From assembly GCA_012798455.1 (NCBI GenBank), contig JAAZNC010000034.1, positions 1 through 64,000 of the forward strand: 64,000 nucleotides of DNA. Direction: 5' to 3'. The notes below the pieces were generated by a model that was not told the origin of the DNA, made no database searches, and saw only the letters and a program-made list of their open reading frames with translations. Position 1 is the stretch's first letter. Each line of letters begins with the position of its first letter. Of this stretch, positions 20,093-29,155 are shown piece after piece. Made by a program: the position numbers and the translations under genes. Source of the stretch: Chloroflexota bacterium. GTDB lineage: Bacteria; Chloroflexota; Anaerolineae; Anaerolineales; Anaerolineaceae.

Positions 20093-20374
20093 ATGGAAAT
20101 TAAAAATCGCACCCGCCTGATTATGATCGTTTTAATTCGTGTATTTCTTACACTGGGGATTGTAATGGTATTATTTTTGGGCATGTGGGTCGGCTATTTT
20201 ACAATTCCGCTTATTATCATTGTTGTTTTTTCAATTATTTTGGCAATTTCTGATATCGGTATTCTATTCACTCTACGCGAAAAAAACGGAAAGGAAACGA
20301 AAAAAACAAAGCGTCGAGGGAATGGTTATGAGTTTATTGATGAAATAAACATTGATGAAGAACATGAAAAGTAA
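20093..20374 (+). CDS. Small two-TM membrane protein, first gene of polysaccharide operon
   Basis: 93-aa hydrophobic ORF whose 3' end overlaps the start of the GT2 gene. Confidence 0.55.
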   Translation: MEIKNRTRLIMIVLIRVFLTLGIVMVLFLGMWVGYFTIPLIIIVVFSIILAISDIGILFTLREKNGKETKKTKRRGNGYEFIDEINIDEEHEK

Positions 20375-23300
20375 GGAAATTCCGTATCTGCAACTTTCTA
20401 CAAATTTTTGCCCGCAGAATATCTATCCGGGCATTCCGGAATCCGTTTCGCAAAAATATGGTGTAGTTCCATTGTGGATGGGACACGAGAACTATGTGGT
20501 TGGCGTCGCAGATCGTCAATTTAGATATAAAACTTCGATCGAACGTCTAATAGAACATCCAATTAAGCTGTTCTTATTACCATATTCGACCATTCAATAT
20601 CTTCAATACCTTCTCTATGGAGATCATTATAGACTGAATATTCAGAAAGGTGTTTCTGAACTCTATCACTGTCTAAATGGGAATCCAGCAAATCGTGATG
20701 AGATGAACTCCCGCGACCATGTTGAGAAGAATCATGTGAATGAGAAACTTCTCAGACATAACCTTACGTTTACAGAAAAAGCCAACCTGGAATGTTTAGG
20801 AATTGACTACCAAATACCGCACTTTGATCTCAATGCGACTCGAATCGATACTGCGCTAGCCCCATTAATTCCATTGGAGACTGCCAGGCGATATCACGTC
20901 ATTCCATTATGGTGGCTTGGGAAGTGTTTATTTATCGGATGCAACAGTGCTACAATATCGGAAGATTTTCCCCATCTGGAAGAACTTTTTCCATTTAACT
21001 ATCAATTGATCTTGTGTACGGAAAGGCAATGGAAACTTGCCTTTCGCAGTATTTACCTTGAGGGACAAAAGGAAAAAACAATCTCCGAGCAAGATCTAAT
21101 TATTTATTATCAACGCCATTTTTCGCTGGATGCCGGTAATTTGCAGCGTGCCAAGATTTATAGCAATCAGTACAAAACTGATTTGACCCATGCGTTGCTC
21201 GAATTAAAGATCATTTCACCAGCTATGGCATTACAAGCGCGGTCAGTATTGATGGGTGTACCCAGAGTTGAGTTGATCCAAAAATCACCCTCTGAAAGTG
21301 CGAAGTTGCTCCCAGTAGAAATTGCTGAATTGCTGGATGTGGTTATTCTTGAGCAAAATGGGAAAACCATTTCAGTAGCCGGCGATGAGATCACCCGTGA
21401 AAAAATAGATGTGGTTCATTCCATTACAGGTTATGAGGTGAAGCCTTATCTGGTCGATTCGGATCATTTGCAGATCTGGTTAAAACAGATCCGTTCAATG
21501 CAAACTAACGAAACGATTACTGGATATGAACTTTCTTTAAGAGAAATCTTATCATCACTTGGGATGCTAACTGAAAAGCAGATGAATGAAGTGGAGAAAG
21601 AATCTGCAGATGATGATGTGAGTTTTAGCAAACGACTGCTTGCACTGGGTTATTTGAGTGATGCTGATCTGGCAATGTTATTCAGCCTTCAAACTGGCAC
21701 ACCTTCTGCTGTTTTAGACCATGCTAATTTGAAGCAGGATTATTTGAATGAATATTCGCAAGAATTTGTGCAGAAACATTCCTTGATCCCTCTATATGAA
21801 TCTGAAACCGCAATATGGGTTGCAACCACAGACCCATTCAATGGAGATGGATTTCAACAAATAGAACAATCCAGAAATAAACCGGTCATCCCCATCATTG
21901 CCCCAACTGGAGTGGTCGAGGCGATCATTGAGCAAACTTGGGGTGCTCACAAACCTGTCATTATTGGTGATGCATATCCATTTATCCAAAAATTGATCAG
22001 ATTCGATTTTCTTACGCAAACCCAGGCTAATGAAATGATTCGTCTAATTAAGGAAGAACGGCAGTCATTTGATGAAGCTTTTATGAATGCCACTTTTTTT
22101 GATGCACGGCAAACAAATCGGATACTGGCAAATGTTTTTTCGATCCCAATACTGGATATTTCCCTAGTGGAAGAATTGCGCGAACAATTCGACGGTTTAG
22201 GAAACAAGACAACTCGCCCGTTTTACAGTGACCCCATTGATCCAAAGATTGCTACTCTGGTTGATAATGTGTTTGCTAGTGAACATACTATGCTACCCAT
22301 TCGAAAAGAAGAACAGCATGTTCTTGTGGCATTTGCAGACCCCATGACAGTCCAGAATCTCAAATTCTTTGAAGATCATCTAGGGGTACCTATTTCACCG
22401 GTACTGGCCATCCGTTCTGATTTGAAAGACGCAATTTCTCGATCGTTGGGGCGCAAAAACATTGGTACCTATTTAATGGAAAACGGGTATATCAGTCGCA
22501 GACAGCTGAATGATGCGTTGGAATTATCTCAACGCACAGGGGTTCGACTTGGTCAAGCTTTACTGACCAAACAGTACGTTCGTGAGGTACAGATCTATGA
22601 AGTTCTTGCAAAGCAAACCGGATTTGAATTTATTGATCTAAAAAACACGGAGATCCAGGAAGAAGCTGTCCGGCTGATTGATCCGGATATTGAACGTGAG
22701 TTAGGAATTCTTCCAATTCAGGTGAATGGTTCCGAACTAACGTTAGCCATTGTTGATCCAATCGATAGACGCAATATCGCAAAAGCGGAAGAGTTAACCA
22801 AGAAAAAAGCGCATCCTGTGATAGTTTCTGAAGAAGGCTTCGAGTTTGCACTTGAACATATCTATAAATCCGATTACACCACCACCAGTACATCCAATTT
22901 GCTAAAACGATCTCCTAGAGAGTCAGCCTTTCGTGTTCTAAGTAAAGGGCAAGCTATTTTCTTCTCTGTTGTGTTCTTTCTTTCATTAATTTGGATGATC
23001 CTGGATTTTACTTCCTTTGCGATCATCATTAATGAACTGGTCACCATTTTTTATATCGGTTTTTCTGGTTATAAGTTCTATCTTGTATATAATGCTATGA
23101 ACCATGATTGTGAGGTTCCTGTTTCAAAGGCGGAACTTGATGCACTTGATCCCGTGCAATTACCAATTTATACTCTACTGGTGCCGGTTTATAAAGAAGC
23201 AGAAGTCCTGCCGGACTTGATGAAATCATTAACTCAATTGGATTATCCAAACACAAAACTGGACATTAAGATACTTTTGGAAGAGGATGATATCGAAACC

Positions 23301-24323
23301 ATCCAACGTTTCTATGATCTGGATTTACCCCCGCATTTCAAAGCCACCATCGTTCCGGGATCACAGCCCAAAACAAAACCAAAAGCCTGCAACTATGGGC
23401 TGATTCATGCCAAGGGAGAATATATTGTAATCTTCGATGCAGAGGACCGTCCGGACCATGATCAACTCAAGAAAGCGGTTGTGGCATTTGAAAAATCTGA
23501 TTCAAATGTGGTTTGTATTCAGGCTAAACTGAATTATTACAACCGCACACAGAATCTACTCACCCAATGGTTCACCTCGGAATATTCAATGTGGTTCGAT
23601 CTTTTTTTGCCTGGCCTGGATGCTTCGGAAGCCCCCATTCCCTTGGGTGGTACCTCTAATCATTTCAAGCGTCGTGCCTTGGCAGAGGTGGGCGCTTGGG
23701 ATCCACATAATGTAACCGAGGATGCTGACCTGGGGATGCGATTGTATAAGCGCGGCTACCATACTCGTACGATCGATTCGACGACCTATGAAGAAGCTAA
23801 TAGCAGGGTGAATAACTGGCTACGCCAGCGTTCGCGCTGGATCAAAGGTTATATTCAAACCTGGTTGGTGCACATGCGTGATCCTCTGAAATTAGCGCGA
23901 GAGGTGGGCATAAAAGGTTTTATCAGCTTCCAGTTCGTTACCGGTGGCACTTTTTTCGCAGCCCTGGCAAACCCGATCTTATGGACGATTACCACGGTGT
24001 GGTTTTTAACCCAATGGGCATTTATCCAGGAAACATTTCCAGGTATGATCTTTTATTTGAGTTCGCTTAGTTTGTATTTGGGAAACTTCGTATTTACTTA
24101 TATGAATGTGGCGGGAGCCATGCGGCGCAAACATTATGACAATGTGCGTTATGCATTGTTGAGCCCCGTATACTGGGGTTTAATGAGTATTGGAGCATGG
24201 AAAGGCTTTTTGCAATTGATCACCAAGCCACATTATTGGGAAAAGACCATCCATGGCTACAGTGAGGAAAAGGGATTCAATCTTGAAGAAGAAATCATCA
24301 AGGAGGAAGAAAATGCTTCCTGA
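20355..24323 (+). CDS. Multi-MshEN (GspE N-terminal-like) domain GT2 polysaccharide synthase
   Basis: C-terminal GT2 motifs FDAEDRP, TEDADLGMRLYKRG, RQRSRWIKG and several TMs; N-terminal ~860 aa of tandem MshEN-like repeats, the last with NIGTYLMENGYISRRQLNDALELSQ/RLGQALLTKQYVREVQIYEVLAKQ. Confidence 0.85.
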   Translation: MKNMKSKEIPYLQLSTNFCPQNIYPGIPESVSQKYGVVPLWMGHENYVVGVADRQFRYKTSIERLIEHPIKLFLLPYSTIQYLQYLLYGDHYRLNIQKGVSELYHCLNGNPANRDEMNSRDHVEKNHVNEKLLRHNLTFTEKANLECLGIDYQIPHFDLNATRIDTALAPLIPLETARRYHVIPLWWLGKCLFIGCNSATISEDFPHLEELFPFNYQLILCTERQWKLAFRSIYLEGQKEKTISEQDLIIYYQRHFSLDAGNLQRAKIYSNQYKTDLTHALLELKIISPAMALQARSVLMGVPRVELIQKSPSESAKLLPVEIAELLDVVILEQNGKTISVAGDEITREKIDVVHSITGYEVKPYLVDSDHLQIWLKQIRSMQTNETITGYELSLREILSSLGMLTEKQMNEVEKESADDDVSFSKRLLALGYLSDADLAMLFSLQTGTPSAVLDHANLKQDYLNEYSQEFVQKHSLIPLYESETAIWVATTDPFNGDGFQQIEQSRNKPVIPIIAPTGVVEAIIEQTWGAHKPVIIGDAYPFIQKLIRFDFLTQTQANEMIRLIKEERQSFDEAFMNATFFDARQTNRILANVFSIPILDISLVEELREQFDGLGNKTTRPFYSDPIDPKIATLVDNVFASEHTMLPIRKEEQHVLVAFADPMTVQNLKFFEDHLGVPISPVLAIRSDLKDAISRSLGRKNIGTYLMENGYISRRQLNDALELSQRTGVRLGQALLTKQYVREVQIYEVLAKQTGFEFIDLKNTEIQEEAVRLIDPDIERELGILPIQVNGSELTLAIVDPIDRRNIAKAEELTKKKAHPVIVSEEGFEFALEHIYKSDYTTTSTSNLLKRSPRESAFRVLSKGQAIFFSVVFFLSLIWMILDFTSFAIIINELVTIFYIGFSGYKFYLVYNAMNHDCEVPVSKAELDALDPVQLPIYTLLVPVYKEAEVLPDLMKSLTQLDYPNTKLDIKILLEEDDIETIQRFYDLDLPPHFKATIVPGSQPKTKPKACNYGLIHAKGEYIVIFDAEDRPDHDQLKKAVVAFEKSDSNVVCIQAKLNYYNRTQNLLTQWFTSEYSMWFDLFLPGLDASEAPIPLGGTSNHFKRRALAEVGAWDPHNVTEDADLGMRLYKRGYHTRTIDSTTYEEANSRVNNWLRQRSRWIKGYIQTWLVHMRDPLKLAREVGIKGFISFQFVTGGTFFAALANPILWTITTVWFLTQWAFIQETFPGMIFYLSSLSLYLGNFVFTYMNVAGAMRRKHYDNVRYALLSPVYWGLMSIGAWKGFLQLITKPHYWEKTIHGYSEEKGFNLEEEIIKEEENAS

Positions 24324-26007
24324 AAGCAAGGTTGTTGACCCGGCACCTATTTCCCCTCCTATTTACACACCTCGAGAAAAGAACCACTTCTATATCAAGG
24401 AAGGTATTCGGAAATTATTTTCTCATCCTTCCACGCATATCTTCATGATATCTTTTTTGATCTATGCGTTGATCGGCATTTATGGCACATTGGCATACGA
24501 TATAGCTGATTATGAAGGTTTATCGAGAATCTCTCAGTCATTTGCAGCTGTTTTTGGACGCGATCCGCACCTTTCAGCCATTGGCTATATCTGGCCTCCT
24601 CTGCCGGCTGTATCGGATATTCCGTTCATTTTACTTCTGCATCCTTTCGACCTGGATATTTTATCGGGTAGTCTAATGAGTGCCTTTTATGCTGGTTTCG
24701 CTATGACCCAGCTTGATAATATTTTGCGTCGCTTTTCTCTGGAGAAGAAATGGCGCACTGTTTGGATGATTTTATTTGGTATCCAGCCACTGGTGTTGCA
24801 TAATGCTTCTTTGGGGATGTCGGAAACCCCCTTCATTGGATTTTTACTATTTTCATTTAATGGATATCTGGTTTGGAGACAGGAGAAAAAAAACCACGGA
24901 ATCATGATAGCTGCCATCGGCGCATGGTTAGCAATTTACTGTCGTTATGAAGCGCTGGCATGGACGGTTGCTATGGCGGCAGGGATCGCTTGGATATGGC
25001 TTTTCGAGAGAGGAAAGACATCACCAGAAAAATTGGAAGCGGAGTTGCTGACCTATCTGGTTCCACCCGCATACGGATTCATGTTCTGGATCTTTCTAAA
25101 CTGGACAATTATGGGAAACCCGATCTACTTCTTAGTGGGTCCCGGGGCAACAGCCAACACCCCTGATACTGCCCAGACCCTTGGACCAGATCAGATCTGG
25201 TATTATGCAATGAACTCTGTCAGTGGTTCCATGCGTCTATTGTTCACTGAAATAACTTTTGTAGGACCGCTGCTGGTTGCTGCAACATTGCTCTTACTGT
25301 TAATTATTTTTGTTAAAAAGCGTTGGATTGATTTTGACTTCATCATGCTGGGTTGGTCAATCATTCTTTTTACATTCTTAATCGGATACCGTGGTTATTT
25401 GCCTGCTTTCAGTCGATATTTTATCTGGCTCATTCCGGGCGGTATTATTGTGATGGGAGCGGTTCATTCAAGATTAGAGAAAAAATGGCAGCGCACGATC
25501 ATTAACCTGTTACTTGTTGTCTTTCTGGCATTTCCTGTATATAACCAGGTTAATAAGAAATGGGCTCTGATCCAGGAGCCAATGCCACAAAAACTGCTGT
25601 TGTCCTGGATCATTGCTGGTGAGCAGCAATCTGTGTCTTATGAGAACTCCTCCCTGGCTGAAATGCAGATGATAGCCAATTACCTAAATGAGCAACCTGA
25701 AGATACAATTACAATTGTAGATCATTCAATTTCCATGTCATTGGCATTGATGGTGGAGCATCCTAAAAATCTGGTGATGACAACCGATATGGATTTCTTT
25801 GATATTTTACGGAATCCTATTGGAAAGGCAGATCAGATACTGGTGCCGTATCCTACTTTTGATGCTCGTGGACGTTCACAGGTGTTGAAGTATTATCCGG
25901 GTATTTATGAGGGCTTTGAGATGTGGACACATTTTAAAACTGAATTCCCATCACCATTACCCTGGAGGCTTTACGAGATTGTTGATTCTGATCAGATCGA
26001 GAATTAA
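24313..26007 (+). CDS. GT-C-like polytopic membrane protein of polysaccharide operon
   Basis: Multi-TM; GRDPHLSAIGYIWPPLP loop reminiscent of GT-C transferases; overlaps the GT2 gene. Confidence 0.65.
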   Translation: MLPESKVVDPAPISPPIYTPREKNHFYIKEGIRKLFSHPSTHIFMISFLIYALIGIYGTLAYDIADYEGLSRISQSFAAVFGRDPHLSAIGYIWPPLPAVSDIPFILLLHPFDLDILSGSLMSAFYAGFAMTQLDNILRRFSLEKKWRTVWMILFGIQPLVLHNASLGMSETPFIGFLLFSFNGYLVWRQEKKNHGIMIAAIGAWLAIYCRYEALAWTVAMAAGIAWIWLFERGKTSPEKLEAELLTYLVPPAYGFMFWIFLNWTIMGNPIYFLVGPGATANTPDTAQTLGPDQIWYYAMNSVSGSMRLLFTEITFVGPLLVAATLLLLLIIFVKKRWIDFDFIMLGWSIILFTFLIGYRGYLPAFSRYFIWLIPGGIIVMGAVHSRLEKKWQRTIINLLLVVFLAFPVYNQVNKKWALIQEPMPQKLLLSWIIAGEQQSVSYENSSLAEMQMIANYLNEQPEDTITIVDHSISMSLALMVEHPKNLVMTTDMDFFDILRNPIGKADQILVPYPTFDARGRSQVLKYYPGIYEGFEMWTHFKTEFPSPLPWRLYEIVDSDQIEN

Positions 26008-26012
26008 GGAGA

Positions 26013-28211
26013 GTGCATATGTTGAAGACAAAAGGAAAGCAAATTTGGATCAGTATCTTAATCATATTGACATCTTTAATGTTATTCGCAGGGATACCTC
26101 AATCCAAAGTGAATGAACAGAGTAGTATTTTTACCTTCGAAGATCTGGGGATATTACTGACAGATGATTCATTTAAAGGGATCAATGCTGTTCATGAATA
26201 TGGTTTTGTTTACCCCTCTATCTGGGAACCTCAAGCTGGCAGTGAACTAACCCTTGTTTTCAGCCATGCAAAGGCATTGAGTGAAAAATCATCATTTGTG
26301 CTGGAACTCAATGGATCACAAATTGCCAGCATGGAACTCAATGGTGAGAATAGTGATCATGGTGAGTTGCACGTGCAGATACCCCAGCAGTTATGGGTGG
26401 AGGGATACAACCGCGTCACGTTGACATTCTACCTGGGGTTTGAAGGATTTGATTGTATGAATTTGGACGATGAGCTGTTATGGTTCACAGTGCACACTAC
26501 TTCAAATTTCGTTCTAAATTACCAGGATAAAAAAGCGGATCCAATTTTGAATAAATTCCCATTGCCTTTTGTATTGGATTCTGGCATTCTGGAAAATGAC
26601 GTGACTTTTATTCTACCAGATGAGCCGACATCTGCTGAAACCAATGCGGCAGCTCTGATAAGCGCAAAATTAGGGCAATATGCGAGCTGGCGTACGTTGA
26701 ACGTTCATTTTGCAGATCAACGTGATGCTTTAACCACTCCTGATGCGCTAATAGGAAATATCATTCTGGTCGGGCAGGCTAACCACCTTGCTCTGCTTGA
26801 TAATATGGATGTGCCGTGGAAAATTGAGAATGGTTCCATCATGGATATAGGCGGTGATCCATATCCTGAGAATGCCGGTATTTTATGGACGGGACGATTT
26901 CTTGATAATGATTACAAATCTGTATTGGTGATAACTGGCAATACGAATGAATCCCTCATAAAAGCCGCAAAAGCCCTTACCATGGATTCGATCGTTGAGC
27001 AGTTACCAGGTAGCCTGGCATTGGTTGAACAAGTACCTGCTTCAATATCAGCACAAACAACCTATACCCCTACTTTTACTCTTGCCAAGTACCAGTATCA
27101 AGATAATACCTCGTGGGGAACATCCGAACAACAAATTGCATATACTTTGCCGTTTGCTACCTCATGGAAAGTGATCAATGATGTGATCTTGAATTTGCAT
27201 TTTTCTCATTCAGATTTTGGGGATTCAAATAAATCGTATATTACGATCTTGATGAATGGTACACCAGCGGATACTATCCAATTAACCATAGATAATGCAG
27301 ATGATGCCTGGCAGGAAGTTGTTATTCCTGCCCGTCTGTTTGATTTTGGAGATAATATTTTGACCATAGTCAGCAACATTAATAATCCCGAGGGTGATCG
27401 TGATGCTCGTTACGCTTGTTTGGATGTGGATCCGACTGCATCTTGGATTGTTGTGTTCGCTGATTCGGAAATGACAGTTCCGTTAGGACCATCCAGCGAT
27501 GCTCTTTCGATTAATGAATTTCCTTATGCTTTCATTGGAAAATCCGATCTATCAGATTTTGGTTTTATTCTTCCAGACGAGACGAATAAAACAATTGATG
27601 AAATGGTCATCCGCTTGAGTGGTTTTCTTGGTCATTATTTGAATGGAGAAGGGATTGGTTTGCACGTGTATAATCCTGCTGAATTAGCCGGAGTTAAAGA
27701 AAAACCCACCCACTTGATCATGATCGGTTTGCCCACCCAAAATAGCGAAATTGCAAAACTTAATGAACGCCTCCCCCAACCTTTTGAAGAAGGCACAAAT
27801 AATCCTATGGCATTGAATGATGTTGTTCAGGTAAATCCCAATTTTGCCGATATTGGTTATTTGCAGGCATTATTAGATCTCGAAGGCAATCCCATACTAG
27901 TCGCCACCGGAACTTCGGATAAAGGAATCGGTTGGGCAGTGGATGCTTTGATGGATACTACCAACATCAAGAATCTCTATGGTGATCTGGCGCTCACCCG
28001 AGCAGAGGGATCCATTTCATCTGCGTTAATTCAAAAAACCGAGGACCTTGTTCCAGCAACGCAGGATATGCCAATTGAAACCTCCCAACCTGGTGATCAT
28101 CTTTACCTGTGGATCGGTGCCGGGTTTGGATTGATAGCTGTGCTACTGGTTGTTGCAAAAATAATAGAAGAACTGGTAAAGAATAAGAAATCGAGGAAAC
28201 ATGATGAATAA
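26013..28211 (+). CDS. BcsB-like cellulose synthase regulatory/periplasmic subunit
   Basis: Signal peptide, large extracytoplasmic region with repeated jelly-roll-like halves (FVLELNGSQIASMELN; ILMNGTPADTIQLT), single C-terminal TM; located downstream of the GT2. Confidence 0.75.
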   Translation: MHMLKTKGKQIWISILIILTSLMLFAGIPQSKVNEQSSIFTFEDLGILLTDDSFKGINAVHEYGFVYPSIWEPQAGSELTLVFSHAKALSEKSSFVLELNGSQIASMELNGENSDHGELHVQIPQQLWVEGYNRVTLTFYLGFEGFDCMNLDDELLWFTVHTTSNFVLNYQDKKADPILNKFPLPFVLDSGILENDVTFILPDEPTSAETNAAALISAKLGQYASWRTLNVHFADQRDALTTPDALIGNIILVGQANHLALLDNMDVPWKIENGSIMDIGGDPYPENAGILWTGRFLDNDYKSVLVITGNTNESLIKAAKALTMDSIVEQLPGSLALVEQVPASISAQTTYTPTFTLAKYQYQDNTSWGTSEQQIAYTLPFATSWKVINDVILNLHFSHSDFGDSNKSYITILMNGTPADTIQLTIDNADDAWQEVVIPARLFDFGDNILTIVSNINNPEGDRDARYACLDVDPTASWIVVFADSEMTVPLGPSSDALSINEFPYAFIGKSDLSDFGFILPDETNKTIDEMVIRLSGFLGHYLNGEGIGLHVYNPAELAGVKEKPTHLIMIGLPTQNSEIAKLNERLPQPFEEGTNNPMALNDVVQVNPNFADIGYLQALLDLEGNPILVATGTSDKGIGWAVDALMDTTNIKNLYGDLALTRAEGSISSALIQKTEDLVPATQDMPIETSQPGDHLYLWIGAGFGLIAVLLVVAKIIEELVKNKKSRKHDE

Positions 28212-29091
28212 AATCATCTCCAAAAACAAGCTGTCTATTTTAATTGCATTGCTGGGATTGGTATTAATTGCAGGTGCTGCTAGTCTGGTTTACCTGGACC
28301 AGCAAACTTTCATTATCGCCTTGTCGATGTTGGGGTTTTTAATGGTATTGACCATTCTTCAATTCGGCAAGTGGATCAATTGGGTGATGCTGTTATTGAG
28401 TATAGGTGCTTATGGATGGATTCAGTACACGTCACAATCTTCACTACTGGGTGCTGTGGTTCTTTCTGGTGTGTATGCTGCGTCAGCTCTGCTGGCTTTG
28501 CTGTTCTCTCATGCGATAAACCGTGAGACGGACTATATTCTCAATCAATACTCCTCCAGCAATGTTCTCATTGAAGAGTTGACTGTGCATGATTCATTGG
28601 GATTAATCAAATGGCATGTCTTCAAACAATTCCTGAGCGAGGAATTTATCCGTTCAAGGCGGTCGAAGAAAAGTGTCAGTGTTCTGATGATGCGTTTGTT
28701 GAATTATCAAGACTATGTGTCGAATGGAAATAAAAAGCAAGCAGAAGATTTGATGACGGAAATTGCCAGGATTAGTTCGACAATATTAAGGACCCTTGAT
28801 AAAGTGTCAAGACGTGACCAGAATACGCTCGGGGCAATTCTCCCCGAGACCTCACAAGACGAGGCAAAAATTGCTGCATCGAGGGTGATCAACGGAATTA
28901 TGCAAAAAGCCAACGCGGCGGTATATATTGGTATTTCTACTTTCCCCGAGGATGCAGTGAACGTTGACAAACTAATCTCAAGAGCTGAAGCGGCGCTTGA
29001 ATTTGCCATTACATCTGAAAGGGAACAGATATCATATGCACAATTAAATGCGGACTCAGGCGCATATTCGCCAGTATCTCGCTTGCACTAG
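28204..29091 (+). CDS. Membrane protein with degenerate GGDEF domain
   Basis: N-terminal TMs; GGDEF-fold C-terminus (HDSLGLIKWHVFKQFL...DKVSRRDQNTLGAILPETSQDEAKIAASRV...GISTFPEDAVNVDKLISRAEAAL) with RRDQN in place of GGDEF. Confidence 0.8.
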   Translation: MNKIISKNKLSILIALLGLVLIAGAASLVYLDQQTFIIALSMLGFLMVLTILQFGKWINWVMLLLSIGAYGWIQYTSQSSLLGAVVLSGVYAASALLALLFSHAINRETDYILNQYSSSNVLIEELTVHDSLGLIKWHVFKQFLSEEFIRSRRSKKSVSVLMMRLLNYQDYVSNGNKKQAEDLMTEIARISSTILRTLDKVSRRDQNTLGAILPETSQDEAKIAASRVINGIMQKANAAVYIGISTFPEDAVNVDKLISRAEAALEFAITSEREQISYAQLNADSGAYSPVSRLH

Positions 29092-29103
29092 ATTGTATAA
29101 CAG

Positions 29104-29155
29104 AAAACAACGACGAGAATATCTATAAGAGTATTTTCGTCGTTGTTTTTCTTCT
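29104..29155 (+). terminator. Rho-independent terminator of polysaccharide operon
   Basis: aaaacaacgacgagaatat / gtattttcgtcgttgtttt 19-bp stem (two G-U) followed by T-rich tract. Confidence 0.85.

Follow-up and report, generated by a model that had tools for sequence, protein, structure and literature searches.

A Chloroflexota operon predicted to encode a c-di-GMP-controlled exopolysaccharide synthase with a stack of MshEN modules and a degenerate GGDEF partner

Introduction

Why would a glycosyltransferase retain five sensor-like modules that have been stripped of the sensor motif? This question is raised by a five-gene operon in a 64,000-nucleotide stretch of DNA (hereafter the window; contig JAAZNC010000034.1 of GenBank assembly GCA_012798455.1, positions 1 to 64,000) from the 2.68-Mb draft genome of a member of the Anaerolineaceae (Chloroflexota), whose named close relatives are Anaerolineaceae bacterium (UBA4781), Pelolinea sp. 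and Chloroflexi bacterium. The five co-directional genes, all on the + strand, encode a small membrane protein, a synthase in which a stack of MshEN modules precedes a membrane glycosyltransferase family 2 (GT2) domain, a GT-C-like membrane protein, a BcsB-like protein and a degenerate GGDEF membrane protein. From sequence and predicted fold, we propose that they form a cytoplasmic-membrane machine for synthase-dependent exopolysaccharide production that would be switched by cyclic di-GMP (c-di-GMP), read by two sensors; we give this reading a probability of roughly 0.7. MshEN domains bind c-di-GMP via two 24-residue motifs spaced five residues apart (PMC5013675), and in NfrB such a domain can gate a GT2 enzyme (PMC8669469).

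Results

Pfam matches MshEN in the 1323-residue synthase at 2.2e-57, in five stretches N-terminal to the GT2 domain (Glyco_trans_2_3, 1.5e-26), which bears out the tandem arrangement described in an initial annotation of the window. By fold the count is six: the AlphaFold2 model of residues 1-906 (predicted local distance difference test, pLDDT, 80.6) contains six alpha/beta GspE-N modules by our reading of its secondary structure, and the top solved match of this model in Foldseek is MshE with c-di-GMP (5htl; template modelling, TM, score 0.84 by target). Pfam itself scores six MshEN stretches in three relatives (L103, L104 and L109; L numbers are our labels for loci). The synthase and its parts are as follows.

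20352 (TTG) or 20355 (ATG) to 24323, + strand: GspE-N/MshEN stack-GT2 membrane synthase, 1323 residues (Pfam)
20439-20618, + strand: module 1, alpha/beta GspE-N half only, residues 30-89 (AlphaFold2; no Pfam match in this protein)
20652-22448, + strand: modules 2-5, about residues 101-236, 246-386, 396-530 and 541-699, with MshEN fold and binding motif lost (Pfam, model, motif test)
22461-22862, + strand: module 6, complete membrane-proximal MshEN domain (phmmer matches in the PDB to MshE and PilF)
22458-22616, + strand: predicted c-di-GMP-binding tandem 24-residue motif, residues 703-755, in module 6 (motif score, NF053729)
23169-23849, + strand: GT2 catalytic domain, with DAED (23436), TED (23715) and QRSRW (23826) (Pfam; alignments)

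To locate the binding motif, we scored 22 consensus positions along the synthase with 200 shuffles as control. Residues 703-755 keep 21 of the 22, against 17 for the best of the shuffles; the best stretch outside module 6 reaches 16, and the RLG glycines are lost in modules 1-5. The NCBIfam model of the c-di-GMP motif (NF053729) recognizes exactly one stretch of the synthase, 704-755, at 60.9 bits (cut-off 38). The motif test led us to reject the count of six c-di-GMP binders; plausibly, only the last, membrane-proximal module is able to bind. The multi-MshEN gate of the initial annotation thus reduces to one predicted binding module and five that lack the motif. In stacked relatives from the Anaerolineaceae, the last module scores 20-21 of 22 and every other module at most 18; in other Chloroflexota relatives the last module scores at least 18, and both RLG glycines are present in the last module of every protein read across the wider phylum. 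Since one further module also retains both glycines in L104 and in L110, the loss of the motif in the upper stack is general, not total.

The second candidate sensor is the 296-residue protein encoded by the last gene. It matches GGDEF in Pfam (3.5e-13) and also, by profile, solved GGDEF domains, so the GGDEF fold recognized earlier stands, with the amendment that the active site is lost and the I-site is kept; the protein is not incidental to the operon.

28201-29091, + strand: degenerate GGDEF membrane protein, PssE-like, 296 residues (Pfam GGDEF; profile to solved GGDEF domains)
28789-28800, + strand: I-site RxxD (RTLD, residues 197-200), with R197 and D200 kept in all 14 sequences of the alignment
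28816-28830, + strand: DQNTL in place of the GGDEF active-site motif, which no homologue read has kept

RTLD sits five residues upstream of DQNTL. None of the 14 aligned GGDEF-like proteins keeps the active site, and 10 have the exact RxxD spacing; at the position of R228, where the third I-site residue of PleD would be expected, all have Arg or Lys. The protein looks catalytically degenerate with a retained I-site, like the c-di-GMP receptor PssE of Listeria, and because of this resemblance the operon is predicted to contain two c-di-GMP sensors. PssE binds c-di-GMP with a dissociation constant of 0.79 uM and is essential for exopolysaccharide production; its signature is DKDDA plus RxxD, and its gene closes the pss operon behind GT2 and BcsB-like genes (PMC4125290).

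How often do these parts occur together? The GT2 enzyme in any form was sought at E<=1e-60 and found in 16 of 298 genomes of the class and 59 of 399 of the phylum. Three congeners carry all five genes in identical order. The architecture of MshEN-GT2, BcsB and GT-C recurs across Chloroflexota: in the stretch read around each of 20 other stacked loci, BcsB, GT-C and degenerate GGDEF genes accompany the stacked GT2 in 17, the exceptions being L105 and, at contig ends, L039 and L111; L060 and L061 nearly duplicate each other. Gene order varies among stacked loci, and several distant ones have two or three GT-C genes. Ten short relatives, with one or two MshEN domains, have no homologue of the GGDEF protein nearby; GT-C is present in nine of them (all but L120), a clear BcsB in four and a weakly BcsB-like neighbor in three more. 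The stacked enzymes occupy one side of a branch with support of 100/100 (100/97 with the GT2 domain alone). The stack and the GGDEF gene were probably acquired once, and many independent origins of their association are ruled out by this single clade.

Two loci deserve separate mention for their regulators: in L062 and L064 the MshEN part is shorter (L062 has two MshEN), and a response-regulator-like gene (REC plus winged helix-turn-helix in L062) precedes it, replacing the GGDEF gene. In L060 (14692-18330), the BcsB-like open reading frame (ORF) is 1212 residues long, with about 500 extra N-terminal residues; the region is split into two ORFs in L061.

Several of our results weigh against two sensors and the polymer machine that they would control. 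As the stacked enzymes lie on one branch, the association of stack and GGDEF gene is a single event and does not count as repeated evidence. In the 17 kb read at stacked locus L105, the BcsB and GGDEF genes were not found. One residue is inserted in the I-site (RxxxD) in 4 of the 14 aligned GGDEF-like proteins. At position 10 of motif II, module 6 carries Gln where Gly is expected, which makes the c-di-GMP affinity of the last module uncertain. Within the window, no polymer-specific enzyme was found adjoining the operon. The deviation in motif II, together with the loss of the motif in five of six modules, would suit an arrangement in which c-di-GMP acts through the degenerate GGDEF protein alone, as PssE is the described receptor in Listeria (PMC4125290), and the whole MshEN stack is a non-sensing scaffold. 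However, all Chloroflexota relatives conserve the last-module motif, even those with a single MshEN and no GGDEF gene, which argues for retained binding, and the binding-deficient XpsE has several altered positions (PMC5013675); we consider this arrangement improbable. The converse arrangement, in which the last MshEN module alone senses c-di-GMP while the GGDEF protein is structural and its RxxD a relic of the fold, also seems rather unlikely to us, if less so. Single-MshEN relatives do without the GGDEF protein, and several lineages combine the shifted RxxxD with a shortened active-site hairpin; but the Arg and Asp stay unchanged in sequences whose active site has drifted freely, and PssE, with the same signature, binds c-di-GMP (PMC4125290). 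We prefer the reading with two sensors.

The catalytic and export partners are the GT2 domain, in which DAED, TED and QxxRW are invariant across eleven aligned sequences (the FDAED, TED and QRSRW noted at the outset hold across relatives), and the next two gene products.

24253-26007, + strand: GT-C fold membrane glycosyltransferase, 584 residues (AlphaFold2 and Foldseek; homologues in nearly all loci)
26013-28211, + strand: BcsB-like protein, 732 residues (Pfam BcsB; solved BcsB chains; hydropathy)

The BcsB-like protein, identified as such from the start, matches Pfam BcsB at 2.1e-49 and solved BcsB chains at 2.9e-07, and hydropathy gives it an N-terminal signal-like helix and a C-terminal membrane helix. 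The GT-C assignment, for which a Pfam scan of the 584-residue protein gives no match, gains support from its AlphaFold2 model (pLDDT 76.6), which Foldseek matches to the oligosaccharyltransferase STT3, ALG12 and ArnT (E 4e-06 to 7e-04, TM about 0.5); the model thus supports a GT-C membrane fold.

That Bcs models match both the GT2 and the BcsB-like protein could suggest a divergent bacterial cellulose synthase. We regard this as very improbable: the CelA model (TIGR03030) gives the synthase 74.6 bits against a cut-off of 699.1, the PNAG (poly-N-acetylglucosamine) and XrtG-type models score nearly the same, and there is an extra GT-C protein and no PilZ. The absence of PilZ from the synthase, reported in the initial annotation, is confirmed by Pfam, and no PilZ match was detected anywhere in the host genome. 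The PgaC/IcaA (PNAG) model gives 59.8 bits against a cut-off of 422.3. Naming the glycan from the GT2 sequence was accordingly rejected, the cellulose, XrtG-type and PNAG models scoring alike and far below their cut-offs. Some weak hints come from elsewhere. The host genome has UDP-N-acetylglucosamine 2-epimerase-like genes and, at a score under the curated cut-off, a mannose-1-phosphate guanylyltransferase-like gene, so that precursors for mannose or N-acetylmannosamine polymers may be available. In L039 (4417-8675), a GH113-like glycosidase (Pfam) adjoins the GT2 gene, with a related ORF in L056 (5422-9772), and in both loci the GT2 gene also has beside it the gene for a large polysaccharide deacetylase that resembles PgaB/IcaB and contains cadherin-like domains. 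A GDP-mannose enzyme-like gene beside a Geobacillus plasmid relative hints at a mannose-based product. These hints weakly suggest a mannose- or N-acetylhexosamine-type polymer.

The plasmid relative came from a tblastn search of plasmid records beyond the phylum. Plasmid pEF60063-1 of Geobacillus stearothermophilus (L121, CP128455.1, 3630-10367) encodes a mannose-1-phosphate guanylyltransferase/isomerase-like protein, BcsB, a single-MshEN GT2 and GT39; its GT2 enzyme has 42% identity to the GT2 core of the synthase and 21 of 22 motif positions. The plasmid is typed as conjugative and its host is a culturable thermophile, making it a tractable relative of the system. Single-MshEN relatives also occur in a Hyphomicrobiales bacterium (motif 22/22) and, more weakly, in Pseudorhodobacter (17/22). 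Given the Geobacillus and Hyphomicrobiales enzymes, the former also having BcsB and GT-C, an N-terminal MshEN on this GT2 enzyme is peculiar neither to Chloroflexota nor to the present genome, a point on which the initial interpretation changes. No six-module stack was seen outside Chloroflexota in a search that covered part of the available genomes.

In Patescibacteria (Levy-, Davies-, Gottesmanbacteria and others; L041-L055), the same GT2 core occurs at 45-52% identity, mostly in large proteins; three that we scanned have no MshEN and a GT2-GT2 or GT2-GT2-GT4 architecture. Those checked were rejected as members of the system, having no BcsB or GGDEF homologue by blastp and, in the three scanned, no MshEN. 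A Bathyarchaeota locus from a metagenome-assembled genome (L040) was also rejected: its weak MshEN has no motif, and the partner genes were not found. The multi-glycosyltransferase proteins of Patescibacteria, together with the GT2/GT-C pairs generally known from lipid and protein glycosylation pathways, would be in line with a short glycan or glycolipid made by GT2 and GT-C for cell-wall or protein glycosylation, with no exported polymer. Yet both QxxRW and the presence of BcsB suit processive export of the synthase-dependent type, and the operon has no flippase or ligase gene; we think this short-glycan reading quite improbable.

The remaining features of the operon are two.

20093-20374, + strand: small membrane protein, 93 residues, one hydrophobic stretch (ORF; homologues in most stacked loci)
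29103-29150, + strand: terminator-like stem-loop (20 pairs, minimum free energy -24.7 kcal/mol, z -4.23 against shuffles)

The small membrane protein has homologues in the three congeners (82-51%) and, by hidden Markov model, in L103-L106, L108, L109 and L112. The layout originally described, five mostly overlapping genes ended by one strong terminator, agrees with the ORFs and the stem-loop found here. Successive ORFs overlap by 23 nucleotides (20 from the ATG), by 71, not at all (a gap of 5) and by 11; the synthase/GT-C overlap of 71 may be shorter if GT-C initiates at an internal Met. Flanking genes look unrelated: CAAX-protease-like and VIT1-like genes lie upstream, and downstream a ferredoxin-like protein is encoded, along with two ORFs judged by eye, a large one resembling an oxidoreductase and one resembling gamma-glutamyl kinase. 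The host genome contains 13 matches to GGDEF, 6 to EAL (two of them possibly parts of one broken gene) and four GEMM-I riboswitches, all located outside the window; within it, no GEMM or other Rfam riboswitch was found at gathering thresholds. No second MshEN protein was found in the genome. At C20:4266-7829 of the host genome, two GEMM-I c-di-GMP riboswitches adjoin EAL-domain genes, one EAL apparently being broken across two frames.

Discussion

Our best reading is that the operon encodes a synthase-dependent, c-di-GMP-controlled exopolysaccharide system of the Bcs/Pss/Nfr kind, with two predicted sensors. By analogy, it would work most like the Pss system of Listeria monocytogenes with an Nfr-like MshEN gate added. 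As in Pss (PssC GT2, PssD BcsB-like, PssE), the host is monoderm, the GT2 enzyme has no PilZ, there is a BcsB-like partner, and the operon closes with a gene for a degenerate GGDEF protein, its RxxD lying five residues ahead of the lost motif; unlike in Pss, there are MshEN and GT-C, neither of which is described for Pss in the text that we read (PMC4125290). All the Pss features that we compared were found here, but PssA and PssB lay outside the comparison, and we therefore do not file the operon as a Pss system. E. coli NfrB likewise combines GT2 (DxD, TED, QxxRW) with a c-di-GMP-binding MshEN domain that its function requires (PMC8669469, PMC8669472). The NfrB-NfrA system differs in having one C-terminal MshEN and an outer-membrane NfrA, in an operon without BcsB, GT-C or GGDEF genes, whereas six N-terminal modules are present here; the NfrB model (NF008411) gives the synthase 120.8 bits against a cut-off of 1170, and no outer-membrane tetratricopeptide repeat protein like NfrA is found among the operon genes or their immediate neighbors. 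BcsA-BcsB shares the processive GT2 (DxD, TED, QxxRW) with a BcsB partner but has a C-terminal PilZ on BcsA and no MshEN, GT-C or degenerate GGDEF protein. The operon thus lacks the defining features that we compared for Bcs (PilZ, a CelA score above cut-off) and for Nfr (domain order, NfrA). Also close is the Geobacillus pEF60063-1 operon, with the same GT2 core, N-terminal MshEN with intact motif and BcsB and GT-C neighbors; it differs in having one MshEN, no degenerate GGDEF gene nearby and a GDP-mannose enzyme-like gene. The initial proposal of a different c-di-GMP-gated glycan secretion system, with MshEN in the place of PilZ, fits all this evidence and the recurrence of the architecture, with the correction that among characterized systems Pss is closer than NfrB or Bcs.

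Domains, active-site motifs, operon conservation and the retention and loss of motifs are supported directly by sequence or fold, and on this basis we infer activity, export and an order of events. GT2 would polymerize a nucleotide sugar and use its own membrane helices as the passage for the chain; outside the membrane, an anchored BcsB would receive and guide it, and GT-C may branch it there by adding side sugars from polyprenyl-phosphate sugars. c-di-GMP would be read at two places, the I-site of the degenerate GGDEF protein and the last MshEN module, which adjoins the synthase's first membrane helices. The remaining five GspE-N modules would be non-binding and could form a docking surface, perhaps one that receives the GGDEF protein, or a rigid arm. 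For such a division of labor there is a precedent in PilF of Thermus thermophilus, whose three consecutive GSPII modules include one that does not bind c-di-GMP (PMC11731258, PMC12002112); PilF shares tandem GspE-N/MshEN modules that do not all bind, but it is a traffic ATPase with three modules, whereas six are carried here by a glycosyltransferase. A stricter version is a dual-input gate, in which the synthase would fire only if the membrane-proximal MshEN and the PssE-like I-site are both occupied, the five modules being a docking arm for the second receptor. Stack and receptor gene do appear together on one branch of the tree; we offer this gate as a speculative possibility, doubtful as yet.

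In the open-access literature that we searched, we found no paper pairing Chloroflexota with MshEN and c-di-GMP, and nothing on Anaerolineae with c-di-GMP and cellulose synthase. The operon would unite in one machine two receptor types of separate systems, MshEN as in NfrB and an I-site GGDEF protein as in PssE. Members of the Chloroflexota abound in sludge, sediment and biofilms, and the operon offers a concrete candidate for a c-di-GMP-controlled matrix polymer of the phylum.

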